DNA of 7,774 nucleotides, taken from Candidatus Sumerlaeota bacterium (GTDB taxonomy: Bacteria > CG03 > SLGR01). The stretch lies in NCBI GenBank assembly GCA_007136585.1, contig SLGR01000051.1:1-7774 (forward strand), in the 5' to 3' direction. Below are positions 1 through 7,050 of the stretch, piece by piece (position 1 is the stretch's first letter; each line of letters starts with the position of its first letter). The position numbers were made by a program, and so were the translations under genes. The notes beneath the pieces are model-generated. The model ran no database searches and had not been told where the DNA came from. It worked only from the letters and a program-made list of their open reading frames with translations.

Positions 1-1724
1 AACTCTTCCATATTATCGGGCTTTATATACTTCATCCTGGCGATCTTTTCTCTTACCGGAACCTTTAACAGTTTCTCGAAATCTCTCCCTTCCTCAAGGG
101 CCTCTATCGCAACCCGGTAAAATGTCATTATGCACCTGAGCATACCGGCCTGCTGTGCAAAGGGTGTATAGGTCTCCTCGGGGTCAAAGGCCTGCTGCTG
201 AAGAAGGTCCTCCCGGAGCATCTTGGCCGTATCAAGAACCTGCCGGTCCTGATCGGATAATGACTCCTCCCCCACCAACCGGACGATCTCCTGGAGGGAC
301 TCCTCTTTCTGGAGGACCGACATCGCCTGGTCCCTCATGGGGGCGAACTCCCGCCCCGCGTTCTCCGAAAGCCATTCGTCAATATTCTCAAGGTAGAGTG
401 AGTACGACCTCAGCCAGTGTATTGCCGGGAAATGCCTCTGCGCGGCCAGCTCTCCGTCAAGACCCCAGAAAACCTTCACCACACGGAGGGTATTCTTTAC
501 GACAGGGTCGGTAAGGTCTCCTCCGGGGGGCGAGACCGCCCCTATTATGGAGAGCGAACCTTCCTCTTCTCCCCGCAGGCACTCAACACGCCCGCCCCGC
601 TCGTAGAACTCCGCTATCCTGGAGGCAAGGTACGCCGGGTACCCCTCCTCGCCGGGCATCTCCTCCAGGCGCCCGGACATCTCCCTGAGAGCTTCGGCCC
701 ACCTTGAGGTGGAATCAGCCATCAGGGCCACCTTGTACCCCATATCCCGGTAGTACTCGGCTATGGTGATCCCGGTGTATATCGAGGCCTCCCGGGCCGC
801 GACCGGCATATTGGAAGTATTTGCTATAAGGACGGTCCTCTTTATGAGAGGCTCCCCTGTCTTGGGGTCCTCAAGCTCGGGGAACTCCTGGAGCACATCA
901 GCCATCTCGTTTCCCCTTTCGCCGCACCCTATGTATACGATTATATCCGCATCGGCCCACTTCGCCAGCTGCTGCTGAACGACTGTCTTCCCGCTCCCGA
1001 AAGGGCCCGGGATGCAGGCCAGGCCCCCCTTGGCGATCGGAAAGAAGGTGTCTATGACGCGCTGACCGGTGATAAGGGGCTCGGAAGGGGGGAACTTCCG
1101 CAGATATGGCCTCTTACTCCTTACAGGCCATTTATGGGAGAGGCCGACCCGGCGGATATTTCCTTCGGCATCCTCTATCTCCGCCACGGTATCTTCGGTC
1201 GTAAAACTTCCTCCGGATATCTCTTTCAGGGTGCCGCTTATCCCCGGGGGGACCATTACCCTGTGTTCTACCACGGCGGTCTCGTCAAGGGTCCCCAGTA
1301 TATCACCTGGTTTAACCTCTTTTCCCTTCTCCGCGGCGGGTTTGAAATCCCATTTCTTCTCCCCGTCAAGGCCGTATATCTCAACCCCGCGCCCTATATA
1401 CTCCCCCTCGGAGGCCCGGACAGCCTCCAGAGGGCGCTGGATCCCGTCAAATATCTGTCCCGCAAGACCGGGGCCGAGCTCCACCGAGAGGGCGGCCCCG
1501 GTAGCCTCAACCGGTTCTCCCGGTTTCAGCCCCCCGGTCTCCTCGTATACCTGCACAGATACGAGATCTCCGTGCAGCTCAACCACCTCTCCCACGAGTT
1601 TCTCTTTCCCGACCCGCACGACCTCGTACATCTGAACCCCGGGCATCCCTTCGGCTACCACGAGCGGCCCGGATATCTTCTTTGTCCTTCCCTTATCCCT
1701 GCTGTTTTTTTCCGGTTTTCCCAT
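1..1724 (-). CDS. atpA: V/A-type ATPase catalytic subunit A (3' end cut by window edge)
   Basis: This is the catalytic subunit of the V1/A1 head, which binds and hydrolyses (or synthesises) ATP at the interface with subunit B. I translated 574 codons back from the ATG at 1724-1722; the family is usually about 580-600 residues, so only a short C-terminal tail is missing. Visible landmarks are ISGPLVVAEGM (residues 17-27), the A-subunit-specific insert (about 110-200), Walker A GPFGSGKT (240-247), GCGERGNEM with the catalytic Glu at 269, the Walker B region VALMADSTSRWAEALRE with Asp337, and GYPAYLASR (361-369). The C-terminal helical part ends with VREKIARMKYI. No intein interrupts Walker A. 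The N-terminus has a Lys/Arg-rich extension of about 8-10 residues before the usual start of the fold; no other ATG or GTG precedes the conserved GPLVVAEG, so the ATG is kept. The start follows the atpF stop by 9 nt, with AAGGA (1735-1731) overlapping that stop. Subunits B and D probably follow beyond the window. Confidence 0.97.
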   Translation of the reverse strand, partial: MGKPEKNSRDKGRTKKISGPLVVAEGMPGVQMYEVVRVGKEKLVGEVVELHGDLVSVQVYEETGGLKPGEPVEATGAALSVELGPGLAGQIFDGIQRPLEAVRASEGEYIGRGVEIYGLDGEKKWDFKPAAEKGKEVKPGDILGTLDETAVVEHRVMVPPGISGTLKEISGGSFTTEDTVAEIEDAEGNIRRVGLSHKWPVRSKRPYLRKFPPSEPLITGQRVIDTFFPIAKGGLACIPGPFGSGKTVVQQQLAKWADADIIVYIGCGERGNEMADVLQEFPELEDPKTGEPLIKRTVLIANTSNMPVAAREASIYTGITIAEYYRDMGYKVALMADSTSRWAEALREMSGRLEEMPGEEGYPAYLASRIAEFYERGGRVECLRGEEEGSLSIIGAVSPPGGDLTDPVVKNTLRVVKVFWGLDGELAAQRHFPAIHWLRSYSLYLENIDEWLSENAGREFAPMRDQAMSVLQKEESLQEIVRLVGEESLSDQDRQVLDTAKMLREDLLQQQAFDPEETYTPFAQQAGMLRCIMTFYRVAIEALEEGRDFEKLLKVPVREKIARMKYIKPDNMEE

Positions 1725-1733
1725 TATATTTCC

Positions 1734-2039
1734 TTAAAATATCTTCGCACCTATGGCTTTTACAGAGGCGGAGGTTATCTTCCTTCCGGCCATCTGCGAC
1801 CTGCCCCATCCTTTAAGTATCATTATATTCGCCCCGGCCTCTTCCAGTTCCTCCACCACCGATACCCGGTCAACCAGCTCTTCATCAAGTATAAAAAGTT
1901 TTCCCTGGGTATCCTGCTTCCTGATAAACTCTGCGGCATCTCCGGAACCGGAAGCAGTATGCGCCTCAAACCCGGCCAGCTGCCAGGGAGCCGTAAACCC
2001 TTTGGTTCCAACCGCGCATATACCGTAATTATCAGACAT
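1734..2039 (-). CDS. atpF: V/A-type ATPase subunit F (central stalk)
   Basis: This 101-residue protein has the length and sequence character of the small F subunit, which sits on the central rotor shaft with subunit D inside the A3B3 head. The N-terminus shows the typical beta-strand and turn AVGTKGFTAPWQLAGFEAH (residues 9-27), equivalent to the family pattern in which a glycine-rich turn leads to a LAGFE segment. A second conserved strand, KLFILDEELVDRV, follows at about 47-59. The fold is Rossmann-like in known members and soluble, and no membrane segment is present. The ATG at 2039 overlaps the end of atpC by 8 nt, so it is probably translated by ribosomes finishing atpC. The atpA start follows 9 nt after its stop. 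Assignment rests on length, motif and position between C and A, the standard archaeal-type order. Confidence 0.93.
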   Translation of the reverse strand: MSDNYGICAVGTKGFTAPWQLAGFEAHTASGSGDAAEFIRKQDTQGKLFILDEELVDRVSVVEELEEAGANIMILKGWGRSQMAGRKITSASVKAIGAKIF

Positions 2040-2946
2040 ACCCCGCGCTTATCCTTTCCCTGATCCGGTCAGGGGACTCTGAGGCATCTATACCCGCCAG
2101 GACAGCCCTGAGGTTCCGGACCTCTTCCGTTATGCTCAGGAAATACCCCAGGGGAGGCTCTATCCCGAAGGTTACCTTGCGCATATCCCTGAGCCTTGAA
2201 CCAAGCCACCCCTTGAGGAGGTCTTCCCAGACACCATAATCCTTCTCGTGCTCAACCGCCTTCATAAACCCCCGGGCCCCCAGTTTGGGAGGGACGGATT
2301 TTTTAGGGTCTATCCTCCCCCACTCCTTCTCCGTTATACGTCCGCCTGCGCGGTAAAAAGGCTTCTCGTGAAGCAGGTTAAGTAGCAGGTTATCTATATC
2401 CGTCCGGTCCCTGAAATACTCCGCAACAGCCGTGCCGGAGACCGGAGGGTAAAACTCCCGGAAGGCGTAATCCAGGGATACCTTCTCAAGAAACGCATCC
2501 GGGGACTCATCCAGGGAAGGGTACTCCCTGAGCACCCTCTCAGGGACCAGCCTGAAGAACCCGGGGTACTTCTCTCTCCCCCACTCCCGGGCGGTAAAGA
2601 CACCCTCCCTCATCTTCTCCGGAGCATTCTCCCCCCTTACCCGGTTTATGAAATTCGTTATATCCGTCCTTATATAAAAAAGAAAGAGCGCTTCCGGAAC
2701 CTCTATGTTCTTCTCCAGGAATTCAAATACGCTATGCAGAAAAAGCTCAAACCCCTCCTCCAGCCCGTTCTCTTTTACATAAGGAGCGTAGGGGGTATCG
2801 GATAGATCTTCCAGGAGCTCCCTGCGGGACGGGTTTTCCGCAAGACGACCGAACCCGGCCCCGTCAATAAGATATCTCTCGAGCGCCCTTATCCTCCCCG
2901 TAGCGTAAAGGCCCCGGGGGATTCCTGATGAAACGCCGGTGCTCAT
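2032..2946 (-). CDS. atpC: V/A-type ATPase subunit C (subunit d homologue, rotor-to-ring connector)
   Basis: This 304-residue soluble protein corresponds to subunit C of A-type ATPases (d of eukaryotic V-ATPases), the funnel-shaped protein that caps the membrane c ring and couples it to the central stalk. It is mostly helical, with repeated three-domain character. The best-conserved part is the C-terminus (about 262-304), where PPLGYFLSITEEVRNLRAVL is followed by IRERISAGYV. This matches the family pattern of a Tyr-containing helix with Glu-x-x-Asn-x-Arg and a final Ile-Arg-Glu-Arg. It is somewhat shorter than many archaeal homologues (around 340-360 residues), so some helices may be trimmed. 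The ATG at 2946 overlaps the atpE stop as ATGA, and its 3' end overlaps atpF by 8 nt. Sequence divergence is high in this family, so position in the operon contributes to the call. Confidence 0.92.
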   Translation of the reverse strand: MSTGVSSGIPRGLYATGRIRALERYLIDGAGFGRLAENPSRRELLEDLSDTPYAPYVKENGLEEGFELFLHSVFEFLEKNIEVPEALFLFYIRTDITNFINRVRGENAPEKMREGVFTAREWGREKYPGFFRLVPERVLREYPSLDESPDAFLEKVSLDYAFREFYPPVSGTAVAEYFRDRTDIDNLLLNLLHEKPFYRAGGRITEKEWGRIDPKKSVPPKLGARGFMKAVEHEKDYGVWEDLLKGWLGSRLRDMRKVTFGIEPPLGYFLSITEEVRNLRAVLAGIDASESPDRIRERISAGYV

Positions 2947-3536
2947 TTTCCGGAGCCGAAAAGCCCTGAGACCACTTCCGCCTCGTACTTCTCCCGGAGA
3001 AACTCAAGCAATGTCTTGAAATCAACGACCGTCTCGGAATCGCCTGAACTCAGTATAAACCCTTCTCCGACCCTGTCGGTCTTATCCGCAAGCTCAAGTT
3101 CCCAGTCCCGGTCAGAGTTGAGACTTTTTATCAGTCCGGGGGTTATGCCCTCCTCGGAAGACCCCGGGAGCACCTTCTCACTGCCGGTAATTACGGTAAG
3201 CTCCAGGAGTTTCTCCATAAGTTTACCGCGATCATCGCCTTTCTTCTCTCTCAGGATACCTATTATCTTATTAAAAGTTTCATCTATTAGCTCCGATTTT
3301 TTCCTGAGCACGGATTTTTTTCCCTTCATACGGGCCTCGGTTATTATCTGGTTCCTCCAGAGCTCGCCTTTCTTCCTGAAAGAATCCTTCGAAGACTCCA
3401 GGAACTTCCTCTTCTTTTCCCGGAACTCCTTTTCCCTTTCGGATATATCCCTCTCGGCTTCCTTGAGAATCTTCTCCTTCTCAAGGGATGCCCGACGCGA
3501 TATCTCTTCTGTAATCCTGGAGAGTTCTTCAGCCAC
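2943..3536 (-). CDS. atpE: V/A-type ATPase subunit E (peripheral stalk)
   Basis: This 197-residue protein is the E subunit, which pairs with the H/G coiled coil to form the peripheral stalks that hold the A3B3 head against rotation. Residues 1 to about 75 are a charged Lys/Glu-rich helix with heptad character and no proline, as expected for the stalk; residues about 85-197 form the globular alpha/beta domain that binds the head. The C-terminal part contains GEGFILSSGDSETVVDFKTL (about 156-175), matching the GG-hydrophobic-V-D-N/F-(S/T) pattern near the end of E subunits. The start is GTG at 3536, three nt after the TAG of atpK. Its Shine-Dalgarno sequence is weak (an AGG in the last atpK codons), so translation probably depends on coupling to atpK. 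The 3' end overlaps atpC by 4 nt (ATGA). Confidence 0.94.
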   Translation of the reverse strand: MAEELSRITEEISRRASLEKEKILKEAERDISEREKEFREKKRKFLESSKDSFRKKGELWRNQIITEARMKGKKSVLRKKSELIDETFNKIIGILREKKGDDRGKLMEKLLELTVITGSEKVLPGSSEEGITPGLIKSLNSDRDWELELADKTDRVGEGFILSSGDSETVVDFKTLLEFLREKYEAEVVSGLFGSGK

Positions 3537-3539
3537 GCC

Positions 3540-4010
3540 CTATACCTGTATGCCGTTTAAAAGGAATATTGTAATAACCAGACCCAGTACGGCGTATGTC
3601 TCCACCAGGGCGCCGTATATGACGGCCTTCATGGCATCACCGGGTTTCTTCTCAGCCACACCTATCCCTGCTGCGCAGACCTTCCCCTGGTGTATACCGC
3701 TTATGAGCCCTGTAAGGGCTATGGGAAGGGCCGCTCCTACGAACTGCAGCCCCTGCACCGCGGTAAGCTCCACGGGAGTTCCTCCCAGAAGATCCACCTG
3801 CAGTATTATAAGGAAGGCCGATATAAAGCCGTATATACCCTGGGTCCCCGGCAGCGCCACCAGTATCAGCATTATACCGAACCTGTCGGGGTCCTCCGAG
3901 AGGACACCGTTGGCAGCCCGCCCGGCGTACCCTATCCCTATGGCCGAACCTCCCCCGGCAAGGCCCATAGCAAGGGCCGCCGCAAAGATAACGTATATTA
4001 TTCCTGTCAC
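3540..4010 (-). CDS. atpK: V/A-type ATPase subunit K (proteolipid c, four-helix, with Na+-binding signature)
   Basis: This 156-residue membrane protein forms the rotor ring of the Vo/Ao sector. It has four membrane helices arranged as two tandem hairpins, the duplicated 16-kDa form also seen in Enterococcus hirae NtpK. Both hairpins show the Gly-rich first helix (GGGSAIGIGYAGRAANG at about 19-35 and GAALPIALTGLISGIHQGKV at about 92-111). Only the second hairpin carries the ion-binding carboxylate, Glu137 in VETYAVLG; the equivalent place in hairpin 1 is Gln57 in LPGTQGIYG. Residues Leu53, Thr56, Gln57, Tyr60, Gln108 and Glu137 align with the E. hirae Na+ site (Leu61, Thr64, Gln65, Tyr68, Gln110, Glu139), suggesting sodium coupling by inference. 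The start is GTG at 4010, chosen because a near-perfect Shine-Dalgarno sequence precedes it and the first helix begins directly after. It lies 22 nt downstream of the last atpI coding base. Confidence 0.97.
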   Translation of the reverse strand: MTGIIYVIFAAALAMGLAGGGSAIGIGYAGRAANGVLSEDPDRFGIMLILVALPGTQGIYGFISAFLIILQVDLLGGTPVELTAVQGLQFVGAALPIALTGLISGIHQGKVCAAGIGVAEKKPGDAMKAVIYGALVETYAVLGLVITIFLLNGIQV

Positions 4011-4029: not shown

Positions 4030-5916
4030 TTACTCCGTTACAGCCAGTTCCACTCTCCTGGATCTCCACGAGAGCGGAGTGAAAAGCCTCCCCCCTCCTT
4101 TAAAAAACTTGGTAAAGAACTCCACATACTGGAGCCTTGAAGTATGCACGTAAGCGCTTAAAGAACTCATGAAAAGGTTAAGTACAAGATGCCCCCCCAG
4201 AAGCACAAAAGGGATAAGAACATAACCGAACCCTGAAGTAAGGAACCCGGCTATCTCGTTTACCGCCATTGCCAGTATCGCCGTGGCCATACCCAGGGCA
4301 AAGAGACGGGAATACGAGAGCATGTCCTTAAGGTAATCTATCCCGCCGTAAAGGTTGTAGAGCCCTGACCCGATCCTGGCCGCGATACCGGAACTCCTGT
4401 ATCCGGAAAAAAGAACCACCGCCGCCGCAGCGGCAGATACAAGGTACCCCGAAAACCGGGCAGGGGCATCGGCCCCCATTATCCGCGCAACCCCGAAAAC
4501 CCCGCCGAATACCAGAACCCCTACCCAGGGGATATCCGAGAAGAAGGCCTCCCTGTAATCCCTCTCCAGGATATTTTTACCGGCCGATATGATAACCCCC
4601 AGGAGAACGTGGATGAACCCCAGCCCAACGGAAAAATAGAGAAACTGCTCGGGGTTTTCAAGGGCGTCGTATACCATAAACCTGTCCAGAAAACTCCCCC
4701 TGGCGGCGTTCCCGAACCAGCTCCCCATAAGGGCTCCCACAAGAACGGACATCCCCCCACCCCATACAAGCATTCTGAGGAACTTCTTCGCCCCTTCCCT
4801 CAGTTTGAGCTTTTTCAACGCCAGGAGCGATACCAGCATCATAACAACCCCGTACCCGGCATCCGAGAGGCAGAGCCCGAAAAATAAAATGAAAAAAGGA
4901 GCGGTATAGGGGGTGGGGTCAACCTGACCGTACCCCGGCGTGCCGTAGAGAGTGGTAACGGTCTCAAAGGGGCGGAAAACCCCCCTGTTCTTAAGAATCA
5001 CCGGGGGGGTCTCATCCTTTCCAGGAGCGCTGAACTCCGCGTACGCCGCCGGGAAATTTTCCTCAAGAAGCTCTACCAGTTCTTTTTCGGATTCCCGGGG
5101 GATCCACCCTTCCAGAACCTTGAAATATGCTGTTTCAGAGCCTTTAAGGGCCTCCCTCTCCCTCTCAATTCGGTTCTCATAAATATCTCCAAGCACACGG
5201 TATTCAAAGAGGTTGGGGAGAAAATCCTTACGGATCGCTTCCCGGCAGGAGCTCATCTTCTCTTTTAACCGGCTTACCCTCTTTTCGGCGCTCTTGACCG
5301 CTTCCTCAGGGGTCTTATCCTCGGGAAGCCCGGTTCTTCTGAACCCGGCCTCTTCAAGGGCCCGCCGGGTATCCCCTGCCGAATCCCTGAAATAAAATAC
5401 AGCCTTATGCGGGCCGGCGACAGGAAAAACATAAACGCCCTCTCCTAATTCTCCTGCGGACACGTTCTCAAAAACCCCGATTTCGGCATACAGGGTATCA
5501 AATTCGGTATCGGAAGAGCTTACCGGGATCTCCGCGAGTCCCTTAAAGAGCTGCGCCTCCCGCTCGGACTCGGATATGGCGGATTGGGCCTGCTTGATAT
5601 CCAGGTCAAGTTTCCTGAGTTTCCCGTAATCGGAGGCTATATCGACCTGTTCCTCGATCTCCCTTGCCCGGGAGATAGATACGCGCGGAACCCCGTCCCT
5701 GAGCTTTCTGAAAGCCGGCTCGGGCGGAGCGTAACTCTCAACCGTATCAAGTATGAAGGAGATTTTTTCCCAGTTTCCGGTATCCGGATCTGAGGGGGAG
5801 CCCTCACCAATTGAGATGAACTCCATCTTTCCCCAGGACTGAACCCCTTCAAGGAGAGCCCCGGCAAGGTTATCCGGGCATATAAGAGAGGCTTTTCGGA
5901 CTCTGCCGGTGGCCAT
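4030..5916 (-). CDS. atpI: V/A-type ATPase subunit I (subunit a, membrane stator)
   Basis: This 628-residue protein is the stator subunit that provides the ion half-channels beside the c ring. The N-terminal half (1 to about 325) is cytoplasmic and contains two charged coiled-coil stretches (about 88-120 and 210-270), then the FKVLEGWIP motif that ends the stalk-binding domain. The C-terminal half (about 335-610) holds around eight membrane helices. Conserved features are LSDAGYG (Asp352 in the family's G-D-A-G-Y-G position, with Gly replaced by Ser), GGIDYLKDMLSYSRLFALG with the essential Arg537 facing the c-ring carboxylate, and AYVHTSRLQYVEFFTKFF with the second conserved Arg594. The length is close to family norm (about 620-660). 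The ATG at 5916 overlaps the atpH stop as TGATG, implying reinitiation; no clear Shine-Dalgarno sequence is seen. The stop is followed 19 nt later by atpK. Confidence 0.97.
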   Translation of the reverse strand: MATGRVRKASLICPDNLAGALLEGVQSWGKMEFISIGEGSPSDPDTGNWEKISFILDTVESYAPPEPAFRKLRDGVPRVSISRAREIEEQVDIASDYGKLRKLDLDIKQAQSAISESEREAQLFKGLAEIPVSSSDTEFDTLYAEIGVFENVSAGELGEGVYVFPVAGPHKAVFYFRDSAGDTRRALEEAGFRRTGLPEDKTPEEAVKSAEKRVSRLKEKMSSCREAIRKDFLPNLFEYRVLGDIYENRIEREREALKGSETAYFKVLEGWIPRESEKELVELLEENFPAAYAEFSAPGKDETPPVILKNRGVFRPFETVTTLYGTPGYGQVDPTPYTAPFFILFFGLCLSDAGYGVVMMLVSLLALKKLKLREGAKKFLRMLVWGGGMSVLVGALMGSWFGNAARGSFLDRFMVYDALENPEQFLYFSVGLGFIHVLLGVIISAGKNILERDYREAFFSDIPWVGVLVFGGVFGVARIMGADAPARFSGYLVSAAAAAVVLFSGYRSSGIAARIGSGLYNLYGGIDYLKDMLSYSRLFALGMATAILAMAVNEIAGFLTSGFGYVLIPFVLLGGHLVLNLFMSSLSAYVHTSRLQYVEFFTKFFKGGGRLFTPLSWRSRRVELAVTE

Positions 5917-6230
5917 CAGCTCTTTTTCAGAAAATCTTCAGCGGTCTTTTCCGCTATTTCCGGGACTTTTTCCGAGACTTTCTCAAGCTCCTCAATCTCT
6001 TTTTCGGTCTCGGAAGTTATTTTCCCGGTTTCCTTACGGGCCTTTTCTTCGTACATACCCACTTCTTTTTCTTCGGCCTCGGGAAGGGATTCCTCGGTTT
6101 CTTTCCATTCCTTTTCGGATTTGACGATAAAATCCCGGATCCTTTTCTCGGCCTCCCTGCGGGCTTTCTCTATATCAGCGGCGGCTTCCTCCTCCGCCTT
6201 GCGGATCTTCTCTACTATATCTTTTATCAC
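5916..6230 (-). CDS. atpH: V/A-type ATPase subunit H (G-like peripheral stalk coiled coil)
   Basis: This 104-residue protein is the first gene of the operon. It is nearly all Glu, Lys, Arg and Ala, with heptad-like spacing and a single proline in the middle region and one near the end. That composition fits a long coiled coil that pairs with subunit E in the peripheral stalk (AhaH of archaea, NtpF/G of Enterococcus, subunit G of eukaryotes). The N-terminal segment IRKAEEEAAADIEKARREAE (about 9-28) is typical of the family's stalk helix. Low complexity makes sequence alone weak evidence; position immediately before atpI, as in archaeal HIKECFAB operons, settles the call. The start is GTG at 6230, preceded by AAGGAT about 6 nt upstream; the stop overlaps atpI by one nt (TGATG). 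Confidence 0.88.
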   Translation of the reverse strand: MIKDIVEKIRKAEEEAAADIEKARREAEKRIRDFIVKSEKEWKETEESLPEAEEKEVGMYEEKARKETGKITSETEKEIEELEKVSEKVPEIAEKTAEDFLKKS

Positions 6231-6302
6231 ACTTTATCCTTTCTGATCTTGAACCGGTTTTCGGATAATAAACGCTAGGTATATCTTTAAGACAGATTTT
6301 TA

Positions 6303-6331
6303 ATTATAATTCAGGAAGCGGCAGGTGTCAA
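6303..6331 (-). promoter_or_regulatory. Sigma-70 promoter of the V-type ATPase operon
   Basis: On the minus strand a perfect TTGACA (6331-6326) is followed by a 17-nt spacer and a perfect TATAAT (6308-6303). The predicted transcription start is near 6296, giving a leader of about 66 nt before the atpH GTG. The leader contains an AACCGGTT palindrome (6252-6259) of unknown meaning. Both hexamers and the spacer match consensus exactly, so strong housekeeping expression is expected unless a repressor acts here. This is inferred from sequence only. Confidence 0.85.
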
Positions 6332-6344
6332 GGAAAACTTGACA
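6326..6344. repeat. Inverted repeat joining the two divergent -35 boxes
   Basis: TGTCAAG (6326-6332) and CTTGACA (6338-6344) are perfect inverted copies separated by GAAAA. Each arm contains the whole -35 hexamer of one of the two divergent promoters. The symmetry follows partly from both promoters having consensus TTGACA, but the extra matching base outward and the 5-bp centre would make a suitable dyad for a dimeric regulator. No known operator is recognised. Confidence 0.7.
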
Positions 6345-6367
6345 TACAGTACCGCATTTAGTTTAAT
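6339..6367 (+). promoter_or_regulatory. Sigma-70 promoter of the DUF47 gene
   Basis: TTGACA (6339-6344), a 17-nt spacer and TTTAAT (6362-6367; one mismatch to TATAAT) form a near-consensus promoter. Transcription would start near 6374, leaving a leader of about 32 nt. Within it, AAGGAAG (6394-6400) is a good Shine-Dalgarno sequence 5 nt before the ATG at 6406. Its -35 box is only 7 bp from that of the divergent ATPase promoter, so polymerases binding the two may compete. Confidence 0.8.
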
Positions 6368-6405
6368 TTATCCGTGAAAAAATCTTCGGAAAAAAGGAAG
6401 ACCTG

Positions 6406-7050
6406 ATGTTTAGGCCCCAGAACGAAAAAACAGTGCAGTCCCTTTTCCTGGAACATATCCAGCAAGTGGAAGAGAGTATCTCTCACGCCGAAGATACCCT
6501 GAAACATTACCTTGCGGGCGAGAGTAAAGAGGCAAGGGAAGCCTCTTACCGGGTTCATCTCTCCGAGGGAGCCGCGGACGGGCTGCGAAGAAAGATAATC
6601 GCCTCTATATGCCGCGGGGCCTTTATGCCCGCCGTAGGCAAGGACCTTATCTCCTACCTGGCCAGACAGGACAAGATAGCGGACCGTGCCGAATCTACCT
6701 GCGACTTTATCGTAACGCAGACCCCGGAGGTTCCGGAAGGGTGCTGCCGGGATATAGTGAGGATAATAGAAAAAACCTCCTGCACACTGAAGCCCCTTGA
6801 GGAGGCCCTGGGTTATTTTTTTACGGATTTCTCCAAAATAAGAGAACCGATAAAACGGGTAAATACGATTGAGGAGGAGATAGACCATCTGTTAAGGGAT
6901 ATCTCGGTAAGGATCTTCGCGGATAAATCAGAAGATCTTGCCCGCCAGCTCCATTTCCACGAGCTTGTCTTTCACCTATCAAGCATATCCGATGTCATAG
7001 AAGAAGCCGCCGATATGCTGGACTCAATGGTAGTAAAAAAGAAGATCTAA
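6406..7050 (+). CDS. DUF47 / PhoU-like protein (TIGR00153-type putative phosphate transport regulator)
   Basis: This 214-residue, all-helical soluble protein has the length and pattern of the DUF47 family, relatives of PhoU that fold as two three-helix bundles and bind metal clusters. Four acidic pairs with E/D-xxx-D spacing are visible: Glu54/Asp58, Asp89/Asp93, Glu156/Asp160 and Glu199/Asp203. The segments SEGAADGLRRKI (53-64), LARQDKIADRAE (85-96) and ISDVIEEAADML (194-205) match the family's typical helices. Family members are often encoded next to a Pit low-affinity phosphate permease and are thought to modulate it. Here no pit gene is adjacent: upstream is the divergent ATPase operon and downstream a convergent gene. 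The function is therefore inferred from family only. The ATG at 6406 has a good Shine-Dalgarno sequence, and the stop overlaps that of the convergent gene. Confidence 0.88.
   Translation: MFRPQNEKTVQSLFLEHIQQVEESISHAEDTLKHYLAGESKEAREASYRVHLSEGAADGLRRKIIASICRGAFMPAVGKDLISYLARQDKIADRAESTCDFIVTQTPEVPEGCCRDIVRIIEKTSCTLKPLEEALGYFFTDFSKIREPIKRVNTIEEEIDHLLRDISVRIFADKSEDLARQLHFHELVFHLSSISDVIEEAADMLDSMVVKKKI

Follow-up and report, generated by a model that had tools for sequence, protein, structure and literature searches.

Back-to-back divergent sigma-70 promoters are the subject of a review by Beck and Warren (1988, as cited in PMC8830795), with fepA/fes and appY as examples from Escherichia coli (PMC4469952). 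In this class, each promoter has a −35 and a −10 box of its own and the starts lie tens of base pairs apart in a short intergenic region. The bidirectional promoters described by Warman et al. (PMC12825309) are built around one shared −10 element, with starts separated by only 10, 18 or 23 bp; separate divergent promoters were not counted as clashing or bidirectional in that E. coli study. The locus described here, flanked by a V/A-type ATPase operon and a DUF47 gene, falls by its sequence into the first class, as two separate sigma-70 promoters are found on opposite strands between divergent genes, each upstream of a correctly oriented open reading frame. It differs from the known members in that both promoters are nearly perfect consensus sequences and their −35 boxes are only 7 bp apart. 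With the promoters of Warman et al. it would have in common divergent mRNAs and a possible competition between polymerases, but its −10 boxes are 53 bp apart, its predicted starts 78 bp, and no element is shared.

The analysed stretch of 7,774 bp (the window) is the whole contig C167 of an Elusimicrobiota metagenome-assembled genome (G000, 88% complete). On the minus strand, the ATPase-operon promoter (6303..6331) consists of a −35 box TTGACA (6331-6326), a 17-bp spacer and a −10 box TATAAT (6308-6303), matching the consensus at 12/12 positions. The DUF47-gene promoter on the plus strand (6339..6367) has TTGACA at 6339-6344, again a 17-bp spacer, and TTTAAT at 6362-6367 (11/12). Thus, the original prediction of two near-consensus sigma-70 promoters, TTGACA-17-TATAAT reading leftward and TTGACA-17-TTTAAT reading rightward, with −35 boxes 7 bp apart that form TGTCAAG-GAAAA-CTTGACA at 6326-6344, was confirmed, and its assignment of one promoter to each unit is supported. 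The promoter scanner omitted the plus-strand promoter, since it demands an A at the second position of the −10 box, which reads TTTAAT here. Transcription of the ATPase operon would be expected to start near 6296 (minus strand), about 66 nt before the GTG of the subunit H-like gene, and that of the DUF47 gene near 6374 (plus strand), about 32 nt before its start codon. Shine-Dalgarno-like sequences precede both start codons, namely AGAAAGGA at 6244-6237 on the ATPase side and AAGGAAG at 6394-6400 on the DUF47 side. An Rfam scan of the window gave no match.

The leftward operon, on the minus strand throughout, is ordered H-like, I, K, E-like, C, probable F and A. Its first gene encodes a subunit H-like protein (5916..6230, GTG start; TIGR02926 AhaH with an E-value of 4.6e-6, below the curated cut-off), followed by subunit I (4030..5916; PF01496, NF004428), subunit K (3540..4010; NF005124, above the cut-off), a subunit E-like protein (2943..3536; PF01991 slightly below the cut-off, NF002629) and subunit C (2032..2946; PF01992). 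The next gene (1734..2039) had no family match and is a probable subunit F by its position between C and A; subunit A itself (3..1724) is cut by the contig end and has 46% identity over 522 aa to an A-type subunit of G001, a genome of the same family. Subunit K contains LPGTQ, HQG and VETY stretches, which we take to be reminiscent of the sodium-binding residues in Enterococcus hirae NtpK, and by this analogy the pump may therefore move sodium. On the other side of the promoters, the DUF47 (PhoU_div) gene, which resembles accessory genes of phosphate transport, is found at 6406..7050 on the plus strand (PF01865, E-value 4e-24), with an LpxH-like gene convergent to it. No transcription factor gene was found in the window.

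Sequences that deviate from TTGACA-17-TATAAT in no more than one position occur 44 times in the 1.88-Mb genome, compared to 9 times for the reversed control, and those sampled lie mostly close upstream of open reading frames. Only two of the 1.88-Mb genome's sites are perfect, one being the ATPase-operon promoter, and among the 44 sites no other two face away from each other at this distance. In simulations of the 175-bp intergenic region under a first-order Markov model, a divergent pair of sites with at least 11/12 matches appeared in 0 of 100,000 regions, and the mean number of such sites per region was 0.0016. The promoter pair is not a product of chance.

In our view, the locus very probably contains two independent, strong housekeeping promoters of the sigma-70 type standing back to back, one for each unit, from which the dyad arises automatically and which need neither a dedicated regulator nor a switch. 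The minus-strand promoter would drive the V/A-ATPase operon leftward and the plus-strand promoter the DUF47 gene rightward, both probably constitutively. Judged from the sequence, the two may interfere weakly with each other when both are heavily used, some interference being conceivable because both are near consensus; they may instead aid each other via negative supercoiling. The layout is ordinary in kind, and its mirror symmetry simply results from the same signal occurring twice in opposite orientations. Neither a dedicated switch nor an operator is supported.

The inverted repeat (6326..6344, without strand) adds little to the two promoters, since any two TTGACA boxes pointing in opposite directions necessarily form an inverted repeat. 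The two hexamers account for 12 of the 14 paired bases, which leaves a single C/G pair; beyond it, neither the next outward bases (G6325/T6345) nor the inward ones (G/A) are paired. Of 16 further consensus promoters in the genome, the two of the window being left out, 5 have a C directly before TTGACA, and at this frequency the extra pair would be expected by chance in about 1 in 10 cases. On the best reading, the palindrome is therefore a by-product of the two promoters. A role of the dyad as an RNA hairpin was rejected, because it is located upstream of both predicted starts.

Similar arrangements were gathered from eight genomes of the order as head-to-head TTGACA/T boxes, whose surroundings were then retrieved. 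Of the 33 pairs outside open reading frames, 20 had on each side a −10 box matching at least 4/6 positions at a distance of 16–18 bp, versus 2 of 34 pairs inside (Fisher p 1.3e-6), from which we conclude that back-to-back promoters with close −35 boxes recur in the order. The clearest case is the dnaA/rpmH region of G000, G002 and G003 (L163, L157 and L145), where head-to-head TTGACA/T boxes with a gap of 4–5 bp are flanked by a −10 box in either direction. It resembles the ATPase/DUF47 site in its opposed −35 boxes, flanking −10 boxes and divergent genes, but concerns other genes, has another spacing and occurs in three genomes rather than one. A further pair, between tRNA-Phe and a peptidase-like gene (L119), resembles the dnaA/rpmH site but represents a different locus. 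Across the order, the gap between opposed −35 boxes ranges from 3 to 29 bp, and an operator of fixed spacing was therefore rejected. The symmetric TTGACA class, covering gaps of 0–30 bp, had no preferred spacing; short gaps are in excess in the mixed set, but this excess carries a bias, because TTGACA/TTGACT pairs were sought at gaps of no more than 20 bp and retrieved mainly up to 11 bp.

Among the other readings, the one that fares best is a competitive switch, in which the two promoters are mutually exclusive, so that a heavily used one silences its counterpart and expression of the ATPase and of DUF47 is inversely coupled. A polymerase footprint of DNase size extends from about −55 to +20, and with predicted starts only 78 bp apart two such footprints would overlap, as would larger footprints together with alpha-CTD contacts. 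Further, E. coli bidirectional promoters show polymerase competition at high activity (PMC12825309), and the promoters of the window are near consensus. However, the open complex in a model of E. coli promoters spans some 35 bp, reaching from the start to position −35 (PMC8830795), and complexes of this size would fit on both sites with 7 bp to spare. Little basal competition was seen at bidirectional promoters whose starts are as close as 10–23 bp (PMC12825309), and the spacing of the −35 boxes is not fixed in the relatives. We therefore regard a switch as unlikely.

Somewhat less probable still is an operator function, in which TGTCAAG-N5-CTTGACA would serve as the binding site of a dimeric regulator that represses the two units or controls them jointly. 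In its favor, the exact 19-bp dyad is unique to this site among 16 genomes, and the only other site of the genome within two mismatches lies before the second DUF47 gene. However, sites of this kind are no more common than in the reversed control (2 versus 3), the symmetry past the hexamers amounts to one base pair, and the window lacks a transcription factor gene as stated above.

The comparison with relatives also speaks against an operator. No same-genus relative was present among the compared genomes or in a GTDB scan, which returned five DUF47 loci, all from Elusimicrobia, with 41–47% identity; the conservation of the dyad was consequently compared at family and order distance. TTCTTGACT promoters precede the ATPase subunit H gene in G003, G004 and G006, so the C before the −35 box is part of the promoter, and in G004 and G006 this extra base is kept although an opposed −35 box is absent. 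In G003, the promoter does face an opposed −35 box, TGTCAAGATTCTTGACT, with a −10-like TATAAG, and the contig ends 36 bp beyond, short of the gene on the other side (L080:4979-4995, corresponding to G003:C10:18978-18994). On the DUF47 side, the ndk-DUF47 unit of G001 has a TTGACA-17-TTTAAT promoter whose spacer is identical to that of the window's DUF47 promoter at 10/17 positions (shuffle p ~0.005), again without an opposed −35 box. None of the other DUF47 genes examined in the relatives has the dyad. Hence, at family and order distance, the dyad beyond the hexamers is not kept in G001 (DUF47 side) or in G004 and G006 (ATPase side), and, given also spacings of 3–29 bp, the proposed binding of a dimeric regulator is not supported.

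The second DUF47 gene of the genome is separated from a divergent sodium/calcium-exchanger-like gene by TGTCAAGAAGGTATTGACT (L031:4708-4726, corresponding to G000 C212:9707-9725), a head-to-head −35 pair with a spacing of 7. It differs from the dyad of the window by two mismatches, and its −10 boxes are weak (4/6). On this pair rests a narrower proposal, to which we assign a marginally lower probability than to the operator in general: a putative regulator recognizing TGTCAA-N7-TTGAC(A/T) would control both DUF47 genes and their divergent neighbors, i.e., the V/A-ATPase operon and the sodium/calcium-exchanger-like gene. The identical spacing at the two DUF47 genes is likely a coincidence, because the total matches do not exceed those of the reversed control and the DUF47 genes of relatives lack the dyad.

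A fortuitous match at one of the two promoters, with just a single unit transcribed from the region, can practically be dismissed: the organism is known solely from a metagenome-assembled genome, but the simulated regions contained almost no sites of this quality, a Shine-Dalgarno-like sequence and a start codon follow both promoters at a suitable distance, and both have counterparts in relatives.

Returning to two independent promoters, their immediate neighborhood probably arose in the lineage of the window. In G001, G005, G006 and G007, ndk precedes DUF47, followed by a convergent LpxH-like gene, and ndk is absent ahead of the DUF47 gene of the window. NDK (PF00334) had no match anywhere in G000, while seven relatives (one or two copies each) and 12 of 14 control genomes were positive; a copy elsewhere may be missing, since the genome is 88% complete. 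In G006, an ATPase operon of the window's type is found on the same contig as ndk-DUF47, divergent from it and about 14 kb away. We infer that an intervening stretch including ndk was probably lost, which would have brought the two promoters together. In G001, a different ATPase operon is divergent from ndk-DUF47, with its promoter about 200 bp away. This V/A-ATPase operon (L074:2533-11045), divergent from ndk-DUF47 and the LpxH-like gene, differs in the order of its genes and has a subunit I of only distant similarity (approx. 27–30% identity). Comparing G001 with the window, it looks as if one ATPase type had been replaced by another at the ndk-DUF47 locus.

A palindrome formed by two opposed −35 boxes is thus no evidence of an operator. 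If the putative regulator of both DUF47 genes did exist, it would link phosphate-related and ion-pump functions. Among the papers searched, none on promoter mapping in Elusimicrobia was found. In this uncultured lineage, the housekeeping promoter resembles the classical TTGACA-17-TATAAT, and closely packed back-to-back promoters recur, dnaA/rpmH among them.
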